This document shows positions 36,559 to 44,134 of a DNA stretch of 64,000 nt, piece after piece (positions within the stretch are counted from its first letter, which is position 1; every line of letters starts with the position of its first letter). This stretch comes from Halomonas piscis (GTDB taxonomy: Bacteria > Pseudomonadota > Gammaproteobacteria > Pseudomonadales > Halomonadaceae): the NCBI RefSeq assembly GCF_031886125.1, contig NZ_CP119391.1, positions 1,178,001-1,242,000 of the forward strand, in the 5' to 3' direction. A model generated the notes under the pieces. It had not been told where the DNA came from, searched no databases, and worked only from the letters and a program-made list of their open reading frames with translations. The position numbers and the translations under genes are program-made.

Positions 36559-37461
36559 ATGACATCGCTGACCCACTTACAACGGCTGGAAGCCGAAAGC
36601 ATCCAGATCATGCGGGAGGTGGTCGCCGAGACGGAAAATCCGGTGATGCTCTATTCCGTGGGCAAGGACAGCGCGGTGATGCTGCACCTGGCACGCAAGG
36701 CCTTCGCCCCGGCGCCGCCGCCGTTTCCGCTGCTGCACGTGGATACGCGCTACAAGTTCCGCGCCATGTACGAGTTTCGCGACCGGATGGCCAGGGAAAG
36801 CGGCATGGAGCTGCTGGTCCACGTCAACCCCGAGGGCATCGAGAAGGACATCAACCCCTTTACCCACGGCTCCGCCATTCACACCGACGTGATGAAGACC
36901 GAAGGCCTCAAGCAGGCGCTGGACAAGTACGGGTTTGACGCCGCGTTTGGCGGCGCCCGGCGCGACGAGGAAAAGTCGCGCGCCAAGGAGCGGGTATTTT
37001 CCTTTCGCACCGCGCAGCACCGCTGGGATCCCAAAAACCAGCGCCCGGAGCTGTGGAAACTGTTCAACACGCGCCGCCACCAGGGCGAGTCGATCCGCGT
37101 GTTTCCGCTATCCAACTGGACGGAGCTGGATATCTGGCAGTATATCCACCTGCAGGGCATTCCCATCGTGCCGCTTTACTATTCCGCCGAGCGACCGGTG
37201 GTGGAACGCGACGGCACGCTGATCATGGTGGACGACGAACGCCTGCCGCTGGAGCCCGGCGAAGTGCCCATGATGCGCAAGGTGCGCTTTCGCACCCTGG
37301 GCTGCTATCCGCTAACCGGAGCGATCGAGTCCGACGCCGATACGCTGCCGGCCATCATTCAGGAAATGCTGCTCACCCATACGTCAGAACGCCAGGGCCG
37401 CGTGATTGATAACGACAGCGCCGCGTCCATGGAGAAGAAAAAGCAAGAGGGGTATTTCTAA
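36559..37461 (+). CDS. cysD: Sulfate adenylyltransferase subunit 2
   Basis: A 300-residue CysD with the PP-loop [19 protein letters not shown] and the family segments [25 protein letters not shown] and [18 protein letters not shown]. With CysN it makes adenylyl sulfate from ATP and sulfate. AAGGAAAT lies upstream of the ATG. Its TAA overlaps the ATG of cysNC by one base, ensuring coupled synthesis of the two subunits. Confidence 0.97.
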
Positions 37462-39365
37462 TGGCGCATGCATCCAACTTGATCGCCGACGATATCGATC
37501 AGTACCTGAAGGCCCACGAGCACAAGGGCCTGTTGCGATTTATTACCTGCGGCAGCGTGGACGACGGCAAGAGTACGCTGATCGGCCGGCTGCTTTTTGA
37601 GTCCAAACTGCTGTTTGAAGACCAGCTGGCTTCCATCGAGGCGGATTCCCGCAAGTTCGGCACCCAGGGCGACGAGCTGGACCTGGCGCTGCTGGTCGAC
37701 GGCCTGGCCGCCGAGCGCGAGCAGGGCATCACCATCGATGTCGCCTACCGGTTTTTCTCCACCGACAAGCGCAAGTTCATCGTCGCCGACACCCCGGGGC
37801 ACGAGCAGTACACCCGCAACATGGTGACCGGCGCCTCGACCGCCGACGCGGCGATTCTAATGGTCGACGCCCGCTACGGCATCCAGACCCAGACCCGGCG
37901 CCACAGCTTTTTGATGGCGCTGATGGGAATGCGCCACGTGGCGGTGGCGATCAACAAGATGGACCTGGTGGACTACGCCGAAGAGCGCTATAACGCCATC
38001 GTCGACGAGTATCGCGCCTTTGCCGAGCAGCTGGGGCTCGAGAACATCACCTTTATTCCGCTGTCGGCGCTCAAGGGCGACAACATCACCGAGCAAAGCG
38101 CCAACATGCCCTGGTACCACGGCACCACGCTGATGGGCTACCTGGAAACCGTCGAGATCGAGGACGAAGCGCTGCAGCAGGCGCCGCTGCGCATGCCGGT
38201 ACAGTGGGTCAACCGCCCCGACCTGGATTTTCGCGGCTTCAGCGGCATGATTACCAGCGGGCTGGTAAGGCCCGGCGACGCCATTCGCGTTCAGCCCTCG
38301 GGCAGCGGCAGCCGGGTGTCGCGGATTTATACCTTCGACGGCGACCTGGACGAAGCGGTAGCCGGGCAGTCGGTGACGCTGCTGCTGGAAGACGAAATCG
38401 ACATTTCCCGCGGGGACGTGATTTCCGGGGTGGATCAGCCGGCTCACACCGCCGACCAGTTTGAAACCACCCTGGTATGGATGCACGACGAGCCGCTGCT
38501 GCCCGGCCGGCCCTACCTGATGAAGCTGGGCACCCAGCTGGTGTCGGCCACCGTGACCGACATCAAGTACCAGATCAACGTCAACACCCTGGAGCACGCG
38601 GCGGGCAAGCAGCTGGAGCTGAACGGCATCGGCGTGTGCACCCTGAGCGTGAATAAAGCGGTTGCCTTCGACGCCTTCGAGCAGAGCCAGGATACCGGCG
38701 GCTTTATTCTCATCGACCGAATGACGAATAATACCGTGGGCGCGGGCATGCTGCATTTTGCCCTGCGGCGCAGCGATAACATCCACATGCAGCACGTGGA
38801 CATCAACAAGCAGGCGCGCGCGAGCGCCAAGCACCAGAAGCCGGCGGTGCTCTGGTTTACCGGACTGTCGGGGGCGGGCAAGTCGAGCATTGCCAACCTC
38901 GTGGAAAAGCGGCTTTACGCCCAGGGGCAGCATACCTATCTGCTGGACGGCGATAACGTGCGCCACGGCCTTAACCGCGACCTGGGCTTCACCGATGTCG
39001 ACCGCGTGGAAAATATCCGCCGGGTCGCCGAAGTGGGCAAGCTGATGGTGGATGCGGGGCTGATCGTGCTGTCGGCGTTTATCTCGCCGTTTCGCGATGA
39101 GCGCCAGCTGGCGCGGGACTTGCTTGACGACGGCGAATTTATCGAGATACACGTGGACGTGCCTCTGGACGTCGCCGAGTCCCGGGATCCCAAGGGGCTG
39201 TATCTCAAGGCCCGCCGCGGCGAGCTGAAGAACTTTACCGGCATCGACTCGGACTACGAGGCGCCGGAGGCGCCGGAAATTCACCTGCCCACCGCCGGCA
39301 TGAGCGAAGAAGAAGCGGCCGACGCCGTGATCGCCGTGCTGCGCGAGCGTGATCTGATACGCTAG
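37461..39365 (+). CDS. cysNC: Bifunctional sulfate adenylyltransferase subunit 1 / adenylylsulfate kinase
   Basis: A 634-residue fusion. Residues 1-440 are CysN, an EF-Tu-like GTPase ([37 protein letters not shown]). Residues 455-634 are CysC, APS kinase, with [21 protein letters not shown] and [16 protein letters not shown]. It drives sulfate activation with GTP and phosphorylates APS to PAPS. The stop codon TAG is part of the CTAG duplicated by the IS5 insertion, so the protein is unaltered. It forms an operon with cysD, and originally with cysQ. Confidence 0.96.
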
Positions 39366-40220
39366 GGTCTGTTGACGTTTCATGGCAGGGGTATTGGCAG
39401 GATAGGGGCAAGCTCACAGAATAAAGGTTCCTAAGCCAACAAACTGCAAGCCTGCCATGCCCCGACAAATGCTCACGGATGAACACTGGCCGAAGCTGAA
39501 ATCTATCCTGCTTCAACAAGGTATTTATGACAAGACCGATCTGCGTACCACGGTGGAAGGCATCCTTTATCGGATGCGAACCGGCTGCCCGTGGCGGGAC
39601 CTACCGGAGGCGTTTGGCCCCTGGAACACGGTCTACAAGCGCTTCAACGCCTGGTCAGCGAGTGGAAAGCTGATGAGGATTTTCATCTCTCTGGTGGAAG
39701 ATCCTGATGTCGAGTGGCTATTTATTGATGGTTCCTACGTCAAGGCTCACCAAGATAGCACTGGGGCTGCCACGGAAGATGCAGAAGCCATTGGCAAAAG
39801 TCGTGCAGGCAATACCAGCAAGATCCACTTGGCCGTGGATGCTTATGGGTTGCCGATCGCCTTCAGAATAACCGGGGGTGAAGTGCACGACAGCACGGAA
39901 GCCCAGGCATTGATTGACGGTTTGCCGGCAGGTGACGCGCTGGTGGCTGACAAAGGCTATGACAGTGAACGTATCCGTGAGCAGGTCGAAGCCAAAGGAA
40001 TGGCTGCCGTCATTCCACGCAGGCGTAACTCGAAAAAAGGAAATGCCAATCTGGACAGAGGGTTATATCGCTACCGGCATCTGGTTGAGAATGCCTTTGC
40101 TCGATTGAAACCGTATCGCGCCATTGCGACGCGCTACGATAAGCTCAAACGAAATTACGAAAGCATGGTGGCCTTGGCATGCGGCTTTTTATGGCTACCA
40201 ATGTGAAACGTCAACAGGCC
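39366..40220. mobile_element. IS5-family insertion sequence, 855 bp
   Basis: Terminal repeats GGTCTGTTGACGTTTCA (left) and GGCCTGTTGACGTTTCA (right, reverse complement). The four-base target CTAG is duplicated at 39362-39365 and 40221-40224. The element sits exactly on the cysNC stop codon and about 20 bases before the candidate omega RNA of iscB. One intact transposase gene reads toward iscB. Confidence 0.93.
39457..40206 (+). CDS. IS5-family transposase
   Basis: A 249-residue single-frame DDE transposase with the N-terminal DUF4096-type domain (LTDEHWPKLKSILLQQGIY, RTGCPWRDLPEAFGPWNTVYKRF). Catalytic residues are seen in LFIDGSYVKAHQD, ALVADKGYDSERIR and YRHLVENAFARLKPYRAIATRYDKL. It appears intact. 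Reading outward on the plus strand it could drive transcription into the iscB locus. Confidence 0.93.
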   Translation: MPRQMLTDEHWPKLKSILLQQGIYDKTDLRTTVEGILYRMRTGCPWRDLPEAFGPWNTVYKRFNAWSASGKLMRIFISLVEDPDVEWLFIDGSYVKAHQDSTGAATEDAEAIGKSRAGNTSKIHLAVDAYGLPIAFRITGGEVHDSTEAQALIDGLPAGDALVADKGYDSERIREQVEAKGMAAVIPRRRNSKKGNANLDRGLYRYRHLVENAFARLKPYRAIATRYDKLKRNYESMVALACGFLWLPM

Positions 40221-40237
40221 CTAGTCAGTAGAAGAAG

Positions 40238-40609
40238 CAAAAAGCCCCGCAAGGGGGACAACGCAACTGCCGTCGGCGAAGGACAATGCCGGCGGATTCG
40301 GGGACCTGACGAGGCATCTGACGTCAGCTACCTTTCCCTGAAGGGAGAGGCTTGTGAAAGCAAGCCCGGCTGACCAGGGAAAGCGGTAGTCAACCCGCTA
40401 CGTTGGTAACAGGTCGCCAAGACCCACCCCGCCGTGCTTCCTCAGCGGCGGGCTCTGGAAGGTCAGGATCATGCTGGCGCAAGGTAAAACGCCGAAGGTC
40501 TTGATCGCTGCCGCCAGGCAGGAGCCGGTTATCGACATTCCCGAGGGGAGACGGATCGAATGATCCGCGACACCAGGCCCGTAAGGGCATTAATACAGGA
40601 GAAAATCGC
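40238..40609 (+). ncRNA. Candidate IscB omega RNA (HEARO RNA)
   Basis: A 370-base non-coding stretch directly upstream of iscB, rich in hairpins: CCCCGCAAGGGG, GGCTTGTGAAAGCAAGCC, CCGCCG...CGGCGG around 40427-40452, TCCCTGAAGGGA, GGATCGAATGATCC and GCCCGTAAGGGC. IscB proteins work with such an RNA, whose 5' end supplies a short guide copied from the sequence beside the element. By position the guide would lie at about 40221-40240, right after the IS5 copy. The fold is my reading; the exact ends are unknown. Confidence 0.75.
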
Positions 40610-41977
40610 ATGGCGGTTTTCGTATTGGACAAACAGAAACGGCCCCTGATGCCGTGCAGCGAGAAGCGCGCCCGGTTGTTGCGGGAACGCGGTCGCGCTG
40701 TGGTGCATAAGCGCTATCCGTTCACGATCCGGCTCAAGGATCGGGTGGAGGGTGACACCCAGCCGCTGCGACTCGGCATCGACCCCGGCAGCAAGACCAC
40801 CGGGCTGGCGTTAGTGCGCGAGGATGCCGAGGATCGTCACCTGCTGTGCCTGATCGAGCTTGTCCATCGTGGCTTTCAGATTCGCAAGGCGCTGGAGCAG
40901 CGCCGAGCCTTTCGTCGCCGTCGTCGCCGTCAGAACCTGCGCTACCGGGCGCCACGCTTCAACAACCGCACCCGACCCAAGGGCTGGCTGGCTCCCAGCC
41001 TGCAGCACCGTGTCGATACCATCACGGCTTGGGTGAACCGGCTGACTCGTCTGGCGCCGGTCACTGCCATCAGTCAGGAGCTGGTGCGCTTCGATACGCA
41101 GAAGCTGGACAACCCGGAGATCAGCGGTGTCGAGTACCAGCAGGGCTCGCTGCTCGGCTACGAGGTGCGCGAATACCTGCTGGAAAAGTGGGGGCGCGAG
41201 TGCGCCTACTGTGGTGATACCGACACCCCACTGGACGTCGAGCATGTGGTACCTCGTGCTCACGGTGGCTCGCACCGCGTCAGTAACCTGACGCTGGCCT
41301 GCCACGCCTGCAACCAGGGCAAGGGCAACGGCACGCTGGACACTTTCTTCACCACCGACAAGGGGCTCAAGAAGCGACTCAAGGCTAACAACCTGTCGGC
41401 GGATGCTCGACAGGAGCGCGTGCAACGTGAGCTCAAGCGCCCGTTGCGGGATGCCAGCGCCGTCAACGCGACCCGTTGGGTGCTGTTCGGTGCTCTCAAG
41501 GCCACCGGTCTGCCGGTGACAGCAGGTAGCGGCGGGCGCACCAAGTACAACCGCCAGCGCCTCGGCATTCCCAAGACCCATGCCCTGGACGCCGCCTGCG
41601 TCGGCCCAATGGACGCCCTGCACCATTGGCAGGTGCCGACGCTGACGATCAAGGCCACCGGACGCGGCAGCTATCAACGCACCCGATTGACCCGGCACGG
41701 TTTCCCGCGTGGCTATCTGATGCGGCAGAAGCAGGTGCACGGTTTTCAGACCGGCGACATGGTGAAAGCCATCGTGCCCACCGGCAAGAAGGCCGGCATC
41801 CATACGGGCCGTGTCGCTGTGCGTAAAACAGGCAGCTTCAACATTCAGACCGAGCAGGGGGCAGTGCAAGGCATCTCGCACAAGCACTGCTTGCTGATCC
41901 AACGCGGTGATGGCTACGGCTACCGCCTCACCTCATCCATTCAACCAAAGGGAGGAGCGGGGCAGACGGTGGCGTAA
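40610..41977 (+). CDS. iscB: IscB RNA-guided nuclease (RuvC-HNH, Cas9 ancestor family)
   Basis: A 455-residue IscB. Domains in order: PLMP domain (VFVLDKQKRPLMPCSEKRARLL, residues 3-50), RuvC-I (LRLGIDPGSKTTGLAL), arginine-rich bridge helix (EQRRAFRRRRRRQNLRYR), RuvC-II (ISQELVRFDTQKL), HNH (CAYCG, LDVEHVVPRAHGG, SNLTLACHACNQGKGN; about residues 200-245), RuvC-III (PKTHALDAACVG), and a basic C-terminal domain. All catalytic motifs look intact. AGGAG precedes the ATG. It sits between cysNC and cysQ with no TnpA gene, as is usual for iscB, with a structured RNA region before it. Confidence 0.95.
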   Translation: MAVFVLDKQKRPLMPCSEKRARLLRERGRAVVHKRYPFTIRLKDRVEGDTQPLRLGIDPGSKTTGLALVREDAEDRHLLCLIELVHRGFQIRKALEQRRAFRRRRRRQNLRYRAPRFNNRTRPKGWLAPSLQHRVDTITAWVNRLTRLAPVTAISQELVRFDTQKLDNPEISGVEYQQGSLLGYEVREYLLEKWGRECAYCGDTDTPLDVEHVVPRAHGGSHRVSNLTLACHACNQGKGNGTLDTFFTTDKGLKKRLKANNLSADARQERVQRELKRPLRDASAVNATRWVLFGALKATGLPVTAGSGGRTKYNRQRLGIPKTHALDAACVGPMDALHHWQVPTLTIKATGRGSYQRTRLTRHGFPRGYLMRQKQVHGFQTGDMVKAIVPTGKKAGIHTGRVAVRKTGSFNIQTEQGAVQGISHKHCLLIQRGDGYGYRLTSSIQPKGGAGQTVA

Positions 41978-41979
41978 CA

Positions 41980-42030
41980 GGTCGCCCTGCGGGCGACGCG
42001 CTATCCCTCCCGGCACTGAAAATACCGGGT
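41980..42030 (+). other. Hairpins after iscB, probable right end of the iscB element
   Basis: GTCGCCCTGCGGGCGAC (41982-41998) is a perfect hairpin; CCCGGCACTGAAAATACCGGG follows. They lie between the iscB stop and cysQ. IS200/IS605-type elements end in such subterminal hairpins, so this may be the element's right end. Neither hairpin has a clear U-run, so a terminator is less likely. Confidence 0.4.
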
Positions 42031-42047
42031 ATCCCGCGCAAAATCTG

Positions 42048-42828: not shown

Positions 42829-43590
42829 CACAGCAAGGAGATCGCCACGTCGCTTCGCTCCTCGCGACGACAGTAGTGGGAAAGAGCGCACGCCCACTAC
42901 TCCATGGCGAGTGAAGTACTTGACTCCCTGGGTCATGGCGAGCGAGGCACTTTACTTCCTGTGTCATGGCGAGCGAAGCACATTACTTCCTGTGTCATGG
43001 CGAGCGAAGCACTTTACTTCCTGTGTCATGGCGAGCGAAGCACTTTACTCCCGGCGTCATGGCGAGCGAAGCGTGGCCATCTCGGGTTTGCCTGCCAGTG
43101 GCACAGCAAGGAGATCGCCACGTCGCTTCGCTCCTCGCGACGACAGTAGTGGGACAGAGCGCACGCCCACTACTCCATGGCGAGCGAAGTACTTTACTCC
43201 CGGCGTCATGGCGAGCGAAGCGTGGCCATCTCGGGTTTGCCTGCCAGTGGCACAGCAAGGAGATCGCCACGTCGCTTCGCTCCTCGCGATGACAGTAGTG
43301 GGAAAGAAAGCACGCCCACTACTCCATGGCGAGCGAAGCACTTTACTCCCGGCGTCATGGCGAGCGAAGCGTGGCCATCTCGGGTTTGCCTGCCAGCGGC
43401 ACAGCAAGGAGATCGCCACGTCGCTTCGCTCCTGGCGATGACAGTAGTGGGAAAGAAAGCACGCCCACTACTCCATGGCGAGCGAAGCACTTTACTCCCT
43501 GTGTCATGGCGAGCGAAGCGTGGCCATCTCGGGTTTGCCTGCCAGCGGCACAGCAAGGAGATCGCCACGTCGCTTCGCTCCTGGCGATGC
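42829..43590. repeat. Tandem array of 149-bp palindromic repeats
   Basis: TGGCCATCTCGGGTTTGCC begins at 43074, 43223, 43372 and 43521, exactly 149 bases apart. Each unit holds an inverted pair: GGCGAGCGAAGCGTGGCCAT and, opposed, AGATCGCCACGTCGCTTCGC. A sub-array of about 41 bases (CTTCCTGTGTCATGGCGAGC) is repeated three times around 42935-43050. Long open frames cross the array in several phases but reflect the repeat, not genes. The family is known as a dispersed palindrome in many bacteria. No CRISPR-type spacers are present. Confidence 0.88.
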
Positions 43591-43615
43591 CGCCTGGGAG
43601 GTGGTGCGATGGTGC

Positions 43616-44134
43616 CTAGGGAATCAGGTGGTCGCTGGGCACTTCGACCGGGCGCTGCTGCTGCAGCATGTTGAGCAATACCACGGCGCGCTCGGTGCCC
43701 TTGGCGTACTGGAAGACGGCGTCCAGGCCTTTGAACGGCCCGTCGGCAAGATTGACGTGGTCGCCGGCGGCAAAGCGGCTGTGGGGGCCGTCGGCGTCGT
43801 GGGGTGCGATGGCCAGCTGCTCGACCAGGGCGTCCGGCACGGCGGCGGGTATATGGCCGAAGCTGACAATGCGTAGCACCCCCCGGGTGGAGCGGATCGG
43901 GCGCCAGTTGCTGTTGATCTGATCGAGCCGGATAAACAGATAAAACGGAAACAGCGGCTCGCACACCGCGGTCAGCTTGCCCCGCCGGCGGCGCTTGCGT
44001 TCAAGCACCGGATGGAAAATCCGATAGCCCTGGTAGGACAGATGCTCGGCGGCGCGAAAGGATTCGCCGGCCTTGCATTGAATGACGTACCAGGCGGCCT
44101 TTGGGGCGTTGGATGACCGAGTATCGTCGCACAT
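43616..44134 (-). CDS. rfaH: Transcription antiterminator RfaH
   Basis: A 172-residue NusG paralogue: N-terminal NGN domain (AAWYVIQCKAGESFRAAEHL, PLFPFYLFIRL, STRGVLRIVSFGHIPAAVPDALVEQL) and a C-terminal KOW segment (FAAGDHVNLADGPFKGLDAVFQ). RfaH binds RNA polymerase paused at ops sites and prevents Rho termination in long capsule, LPS and secretion operons. AGGAG lies upstream of the ATG. It is the last gene of the capsule operon, 31 bases after the oxoamine synthase. A perfect ops site lies at 25120-25131. Confidence 0.9.
   Translation of the reverse strand: MCDDTRSSNAPKAAWYVIQCKAGESFRAAEHLSYQGYRIFHPVLERKRRRRGKLTAVCEPLFPFYLFIRLDQINSNWRPIRSTRGVLRIVSFGHIPAAVPDALVEQLAIAPHDADGPHSRFAAGDHVNLADGPFKGLDAVFQYAKGTERAVVLLNMLQQQRPVEVPSDHLIP

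Follow-up and report, generated by a model that had tools for sequence, protein, structure and literature searches.

The window, by which we mean the whole 64,000-nt stretch of Halomonas piscis DNA analysed here, almost certainly carries an intact IscB transposon encoding a nuclease together with its own guide RNA, and this element directly abuts the cysQ start codon. Copies of the element and of its relatives insert directly 5' of ATGA, and their preference for the start codons of host genes is strongly supported. Judged from the sequences around the insertions, ATGA is very probably the target-adjacent motif (TAM) of IscB, a nuclease of the family ancestral to Cas9. What is new here is the insertion at the cysQ start, its recurrence in the genome and in relatives, the sharing of the right end with TnpB elements, and the place of the element as one of ten copies. 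We tentatively read the IscB and TnpB transposons of this clade as start-codon parasites (probability roughly 0.4), which would use the host ATGA as target and TAM, would replace the host Shine-Dalgarno (SD) sequence by a structured ribosome-binding site of their own, possibly switchable since its GGAGG could also pair with a conserved CCCTCC, and would draw both guide RNA and promoter from the leader of the host gene.

An IscB element in front of cysQ

The protein matched the NCBIfam model guided_IscB (NF040563) with 446 bits against a cut-off of 175, as well as the Pfam models RRXRR and HNH, and the residues L13, M14, P15, D58, E157, H212, H324 and D327 were invariant when it was aligned with ten further IscB proteins (53-99% identity). 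The intact IscB proposed by the first-pass annotation was thereby borne out: the PLMP motif, the split RuvC, the Arg-rich helix and the HNH are all intact, no RuvC or HNH residue is lost across the 11 aligned proteins, and RNA-guided cleavage is the putative activity, the catalytic roles among the conserved residues being assigned from what is known of the family. A HEARO/omega RNA had likewise been claimed upstream of the gene, and the covariance model RF02033 matched there end to end, 5' of iscB, against a cut-off of 83 bits, as the sole match above the gathering score in the 64 kb (Table 1).

The ends of the element were fixed by its copies. In the genome, searched as a single contig of 3.23 Mb, ten HEARO copies lie above the cut-off and eight IscB genes are full-length, six of them, including the window copy, being 98-100% identical to the query; two more copies are broken. 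When the ten copies are lined up at the first HEARO base, they agree rightward and are unlike leftward, and because they diverge exactly there the left end is placed at 40323. IscB guides sit 5' of the omega RNA, and divergence exactly at the first omega RNA base is what is expected of a guide derived from the flank. The right ends of nine copies read ...CAAAATCTG or a close variant (the consensus can also be written ...CGCGCAAAATCTG or a near variant), followed by ATGA in eight cases and by ATCA in one. Since the copies fix both ends, the element measures 1,725 bp. The span 40238-42030 proposed earlier does hold the element but misses its true ends: 40238-40322, including the putative guide, is host DNA, because the copies share sequence only from 40323 onward. 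Similarly, of the 370 hairpin-rich bases described as lying directly upstream of iscB, the first 85 are host leader, and the HEARO RNA follows them.

The element had also been described as interrupting a cysD-cysNC-cysQ operon. It does lie at the cysNC-cysQ junction, and an operon is plausible for the lineage because cysNC directly precedes cysQ in 18 of 29 loci from relatives; however, an IS5-family insertion sits between cysNC and the IscB element, so that the two genes are separated by two insertions. A 957-base query from the IS5-family region gave 39 matches in the genome, mostly near full length, and the cysNC stop codon comes from the terminal CTAG of this insertion, which sits at the 3' end of the gene. 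In many relatives, CysQ homologues start at the residue encoded by the ATG of the element-abutting ATGA. At the DNA level, no empty site was found for the window's own cysQ insertion. The closest matches in the named collection come from Halomonas and Vreelandella. Downstream of cysQ, at 42900-43620, lies a repeated block whose frames read HGERSVAISGLPAS... several times over.

An empty site was obtained at lptA. The joined flanks were searched in 37 genomes, of which 21 matched, and in 15 of 15 aligned relatives' loci the junction showed a gap of 0, reading AGGA...../ATGA (junction at the slash). At this one site the insertion is precise and duplicates no target sequence; it falls five bases beyond the lptA AGGAG.

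Table 1. Features of the cysNC-cysQ region, in positions of the window
Feature	Position	Strand	Basis or remark
cysNC	37461..39365	+	PRK05506
IS5-family insertion, distinct from the IscB element	39362..40224	+	terminal inverted repeats, transposase NF033580, many genomic copies
Putative guide	40303..40322	+	last 20 nt of host cysQ leader, including weak Shine-Dalgarno GAGG at 40311-40314
Whole IscB element	40323..42047	+	1,725 bp; ends from 10 aligned genomic copies, 9 with right end
HEARO/omega RNA scaffold	40323..40556	+	Rfam RF02033, 108.1 bits, model 1-211 of 211
Shine-Dalgarno AGGAG of iscB	40597..40601	+	ATACAGGAGAAAATCGCATGG at 40593-40613
iscB, 455 aa, intact	40610..41977	+	NF040563, 446 bits; alignment with 10 others
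Element-borne Shine-Dalgarno-like tract GGGAGG	41950..41955	+
Stem P1, 5' strand GCGGGG	41957..41962	+	pairs with 3' strand; covariation among relatives
Hairpin P2, right end	41981..41997	+
Hairpin P3, right end	42009..42029	+
Stem P1, 3' strand TCCCGC	42032..42037	+
ATGA, predicted target-adjacent motif and captured cysQ start codon	42048..42051	+	ATGA at 83/87 sites
cysQ, 257 aa	42048..42821	+	TIGR01331; start codon abuts element; Met1 aligned with relatives' start codons

Insertion before ATGA and at start codons

We scanned 275 genomes of the family with a right-end pattern from which ATGA itself was left out, and further loci fitting the same pattern were added. A filter combining the hairpin motif with one of five tetramers reduced 108 distinct pattern matches to 88 true ends; 19 of the 20 rejected matches are without the hairpin motif (among them L223, which ATGA follows), and the rejected L183 fits it loosely, in apparent coding DNA. 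One end, L205, is without a boundary, leaving 87 sites. With IscB and TnpB elements of the own and related genomes pooled, ATGA stands directly after 83 of these 87 right ends, a count slightly biased toward ATGA by a boundary rule that tries G-ATGA first.

Both flanks are present at 63 of the ATGA sites, the other 20 having no left flank and being absent from the count, and a codon-usage model classed the 63 as 33 gene starts, 16 intergenic sites, 13 other edges and 1 internal site. Under the same model, random ATGA tetramers fell at starts in 148 of 2032 cases (7.3%) and internally in 851 of 2032 (42%), this set being host DNA flanking the elements plus the window, with a noisy 'start' class. 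The difference in starts has p ~3e-21, a few of the sites being related, and with internal sites excluded the comparison is 33/62 versus 12.5%. The 33 start calls are an underestimate because the codon model misses real starts, such as that of lptA. An ORF of at least 60 codons lies behind the element at 60 of the 83 ATGA sites, versus 34%, and overall about half to three quarters of the copies have a host gene start as their ATG. The right flanks of the 63 sites are nearly all distinct, with one pair above 60% identity. L127 and L225, which have the same left flank and first codons, resemble one old insertion.

Family models identify the genes behind the elements as, among others, argS, lptA, lpxH (at a contig edge), smpB, ubiA, rsmE and nth, with slmA and lptG behind TnpB elements; alaS, ispB, dapC and trkA are also found downstream of elements, at loci outside the 87 sites. 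Several of the genes entered, such as alaS and argS, we take to be essential, as known from model bacteria. In purD, lpxH, smpB, rsmE, nth, trkA and dapC the model match begins at residue 1-3; dapC was entered at GTGA, the GTG being its start. In the own genome, ORFs opened at the element end encode PurD (model positions 1-424, from residue 1), a Rep helicase and MsrB-like, DsbE-like and GST-like proteins; the starts of the last four were called from the ORF only, without homology, and the name GST-like is our own, with no NCBIfam match at 1e-10. Two further copies precede short ORFs, and the remaining one is that before ATCA. Because insertion takes place 5' of the start ATG, the element separates the host SD from the ATG and points the same way as the gene.

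Plasmid records with third-party annotation were sampled as well: 18 of the 51 that matched were used, and 16 of these have annotation over the stretch. The next CDS starts at the element end in 5/16 (L311, L312, L313, L315 and L321), is uncertain in 2/16 (L317 and L323) and does not start there in 9/16. One of the five cases is parB, where the element lies between parA and parB.

A right end shared by IscB and TnpB elements

A full TnpB gene accompanies 18 of the 25 IscB-free right ends whose upstream sequence is long enough; in those inspected it reads the opposite way, and the other element end begins with TTGACTGCTC or a close variant. These TnpB elements also sit at ATGA, 12 of the 18 preceding an ORF of at least 60 codons, and seen from the TnpB side their flank is TCAT on the 5' side. 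By sequence comparison, the IscB and TnpB elements have a single transposon end and a single target in common, in opposite orientation; from the known guide positions we infer that the guide side of both would face the same host leader. L036 and L222, from different genomes, both have an element at the start of rsmE, IscB in one case and TnpB in the other, apparently as two separate insertions.

The last ~100 nt of both kinds of element follow one plan, consisting of a purine tract (typically AAGGAGG), the 5' strand of a stem P1, the hairpin P2, CCCTCC, the hairpin P3, the 3' strand of P1 and then ATGA, with a spacing from the P1 3' strand to ATGA of mostly 8-11 nt. The SD-like motif is present in 91 of 104 right ends and missing from 13, and the tract is kept in both the IscB (sense) and the TnpB (antisense) contexts; CCCTCC is conserved, and P2 is missing in some distant relatives. 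The strands of P1 differ among relatives and still pair. In Gammaproteobacteria the pairs GCGAGA/TCTCGC, GCGGGA/TCCCGC and GGGAAAC/GTTTCCC occur, and widely different ones are seen in distant phyla, namely GGCGGC/GCCGCC (Sulfobacillus), CGGCGT/ACGCCG (a myxococcotal MAG) and GCGGCAA/TTGCCGT (a chlamydial MAG). All these stems were picked for pairing, for which reason the count of 94/104 paired P1 stems is no test. A first pairing test was discarded as too loose, since chimeras and shuffles were poorly separated from the real ends (own strands 85/104, chimeras 53%, shuffles averaging 53/104), and was replaced by one anchored on the purine tract, in which own strands beat permuted ones and 0/1000 permutations reached the observed mean.

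Covariation was counted in an alignment of 14 TnpB-type ends (A3), of which L165, L166, L172, L174 and L179 lie at contig edges and are TnpB-type by similarity only. The whole structure shows 7 doubly changed pairs versus 1.6 in shuffles, a signal that vanishes once the partners are slid against each other. The subterminal hairpins P2 and P3 covary, and P1 is paired in 14/14 rows, with only one of its six pairs varying, in 2/14 rows. In our reading of this alignment, no start codon was seen at a normal linear distance from the tract. A larger alignment (A1), of 39 of the 50 non-redundant ends (left out were L182, L203 (twice), L204, L233, L252, L065, L068, L072, L077 and L079, 11 in all), was not used for pair counts because a variable linker length misaligned the P1 5' strand. 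RNAalifold recovers P1 unprompted in the 14 TnpB-type ends and prefers a GCGC:GCGC stem over P1 in 47 IscB ends. In single-sequence folding, the pair probability of P1 is ~0.58 in the window (0.32 for the last pair), 0.99 in L180, 0.32 in L193, and near 0 in L249, L035 and L255, where other stems win; the window right end has a folding z-score of only -0.63, and its SD tract is partly paired in the fold.

Domestication of bare ends was considered, but the evidence was rejected: of 7 sites with sufficient upstream sequence and neither an IscB nor a TnpB body, 6 have short ORFs, so that most of these sites do not stand at genes. Single suggestive cases are L054, L188 and L230. In the L054 copy, a truncated end before ispB located upstream of 4699, P2 and P3 are lost, with the SD-like tract, P1 and the start ATG kept. 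In L203, at ~2737-2800, two right ends stand back to back as a palindrome with ATGA flanking each, and no IscB or TnpB was found upstream of them.

Proposed mechanism, alternatives and known systems

From what is known of the family, the omega RNA would take its guide from the host leader, and IscB would recognise leader plus ATGA, that is, the empty site, with ATGA as TAM; it would cut alleles without the element, and repair would copy the element back. The last ~100 nt would provide an SD tract, a folded domain closed by P1, ~10 nt and the captured start codon, and as the tract adjoins P1 and the other P1 strand lies ~10 nt before the ATG, folding would bring the purine tract near the captured ATG. 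That the right end acts as a portable ribosome-binding site is a prediction which folding supports in part and which we hold to be slightly short of an even bet. Initiation supplied by the element is the simplest reading because splitting SD from ATG should silence the gene, yet alaS and argS carry the element; it would keep the host gene translated, and start codons would thus be tolerated, including those of genes essential in model bacteria. The iscB stop codon overlaps the host ATG in L313 and L315, which may offer a second route to translation of the host gene in some relatives. A single transcript from a host promoter would cover guide, omega RNA, iscB and host gene: with a guide positioned 5' of the omega RNA, transcription of the latter has to begin in host DNA, and the seat in the host leader would provide a promoter. 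We consider the chances of such promoter capture evenly balanced; a promoter scan of the region gave one sigma-70-like site, no more than chance.

The main competitor of the start-codon-parasite reading is survivorship, in which the transposase would need just ATGA/TCAT, intragenic insertions would be lost, and starts would be a common and harmless kind of ATGA. The right end would then be the transposase-binding end, its SD-like tract part of that or chance, and translation of the host genes would rely on a weak initiation at AAAATCTG-ATG that needs no SD, or on reinitiation behind iscB. The near absence of internal sites (1/63 versus 42%) fits this, as do the P2- and P3-like hairpins, which are typical of IS200/IS605 ends, and the iscB frames that end overlapping the host ATG; but the excess of starts persists when internal sites are excluded, cutting the SD off essential genes should do harm unless it is replaced, and the tract is kept in the sense as well as the antisense context. 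SD strength at the insertion starts is not clearly different from that at host ATGA starts (p=0.096), which is in line with survivorship, yet it does not decide between start codons that were chosen and start codons that merely survived. On balance we regard survivorship as a serious possibility, well below even odds.

The same comparison weighs against SD-guided targeting, in which the right-end CCCTCC would pair with a target AGGAGG on the same strand and steer insertion to SD-ATGA. SD energies are lower at insertion sites than at random ATGA (p=6e-5), and lower at insertion starts than in the full set of start-like host ATGs (p=0.011), and the conservation of CCCTCC would be accounted for; yet with host ATGA starts as the reference the difference is not significant, and some targets, such as both rsmE sites, have no SD, so we think such steering unlikely. 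Finally, an ordinary IscB element whose start codons reflect the coincidence of a small sample is very improbable: ATGA as TAM is enough to put some copies at starts, but the excess over random ATGA and the plasmid starts annotated by others both speak against it.

If start-codon parasitism is real, it would account for the persistence of RNA-guided transposons in compact genomes, which would not only avoid genes but also occupy the single kind of seat where an insertion can be made silent, and would link the choice of TAM to the start signal of the genetic code. Elements before essential genes would be difficult to lose and could regulate how the gene is translated, omega RNA guides are predicted to derive from translation-initiation regions, and a short natural part of ~100 nt may restore translation at an ATGA start. 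The comparison already brings together IscB and TnpB elements with one common end and target in opposite orientation.

The earlier claim that no TnpA is present held: there is none in the element and no standard TnpA in the genome, where one weak Y1_Tnp match (29.5 bits) presumably represents a REP-associated transposase. Because it contains no Y1 transposase, the element is at most a TnpA-less derivative of IS200/IS605, and a TnpA-less, IS200/IS605-like IscB transposon is probably, though not surely, the best explanation overall, the portable ribosome-binding site included. With IS200/IS605 elements carrying TnpB it has in common the lack of target duplication (at one site), hairpin ends, a fixed tetranucleotide at one end and TnpB sisters; it differs from them in being without TnpA. 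A search of 12 genomes gave 46 Y1_Tnp matches, spread over 10 of them, with none in G029 and G012, both of which have IscB copies, and among the 25 of 46 matches examined (4 of the 25 from G060, which has 21), no TnpA with these right ends was found.

Compared with described HEARO/IscB systems, the element agrees in the RF02033 match, in an IscB far over its cut-off and in an omega RNA 5' of the gene, and adds the start-codon preference, the end shared with TnpB and the SD-plus-stem right end. The first HEARO paper reportedly noted ATGA/GTGA beside insertions; if so, the motif would already be known, though not necessarily its meaning as a start codon. IsrB is without HNH. For DtIsrB, an OMEGA nickase, the part of PMC9581776 consulted gives a TAM of NTGA/TTGA with ATGA cleaved, which, in a comparison by TAM only, agrees with the ATGA of our element. 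The parts consulted of PMC9581776, PMC9755519, PMC8400943 and PMC11706934 do not describe the start-codon preference, the TnpB-shared end or the SD-plus-stem structure, and the titles and abstracts surveyed hold no description of start-codon insertion or of an SD in IscB or TnpB ends, which may already be in print. IStrons, according to the part of PMC4227781 consulted, are mobile elements that render their own insertion harmless to the host gene by splicing themselves out of RNA, whereas for our element a replacement ribosome-binding site is proposed instead.

Several further occurrences were noted. The right-end search gave three matches in phage records, and Allochromatium humboldtianum (L055) has three IscB elements with right ends within ~5 kb and ATGA after each. 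G060 is very rich in right-end pattern matches, with 35, and several IscB copies of G060 and G029 have one TAA within the aligned stretch.
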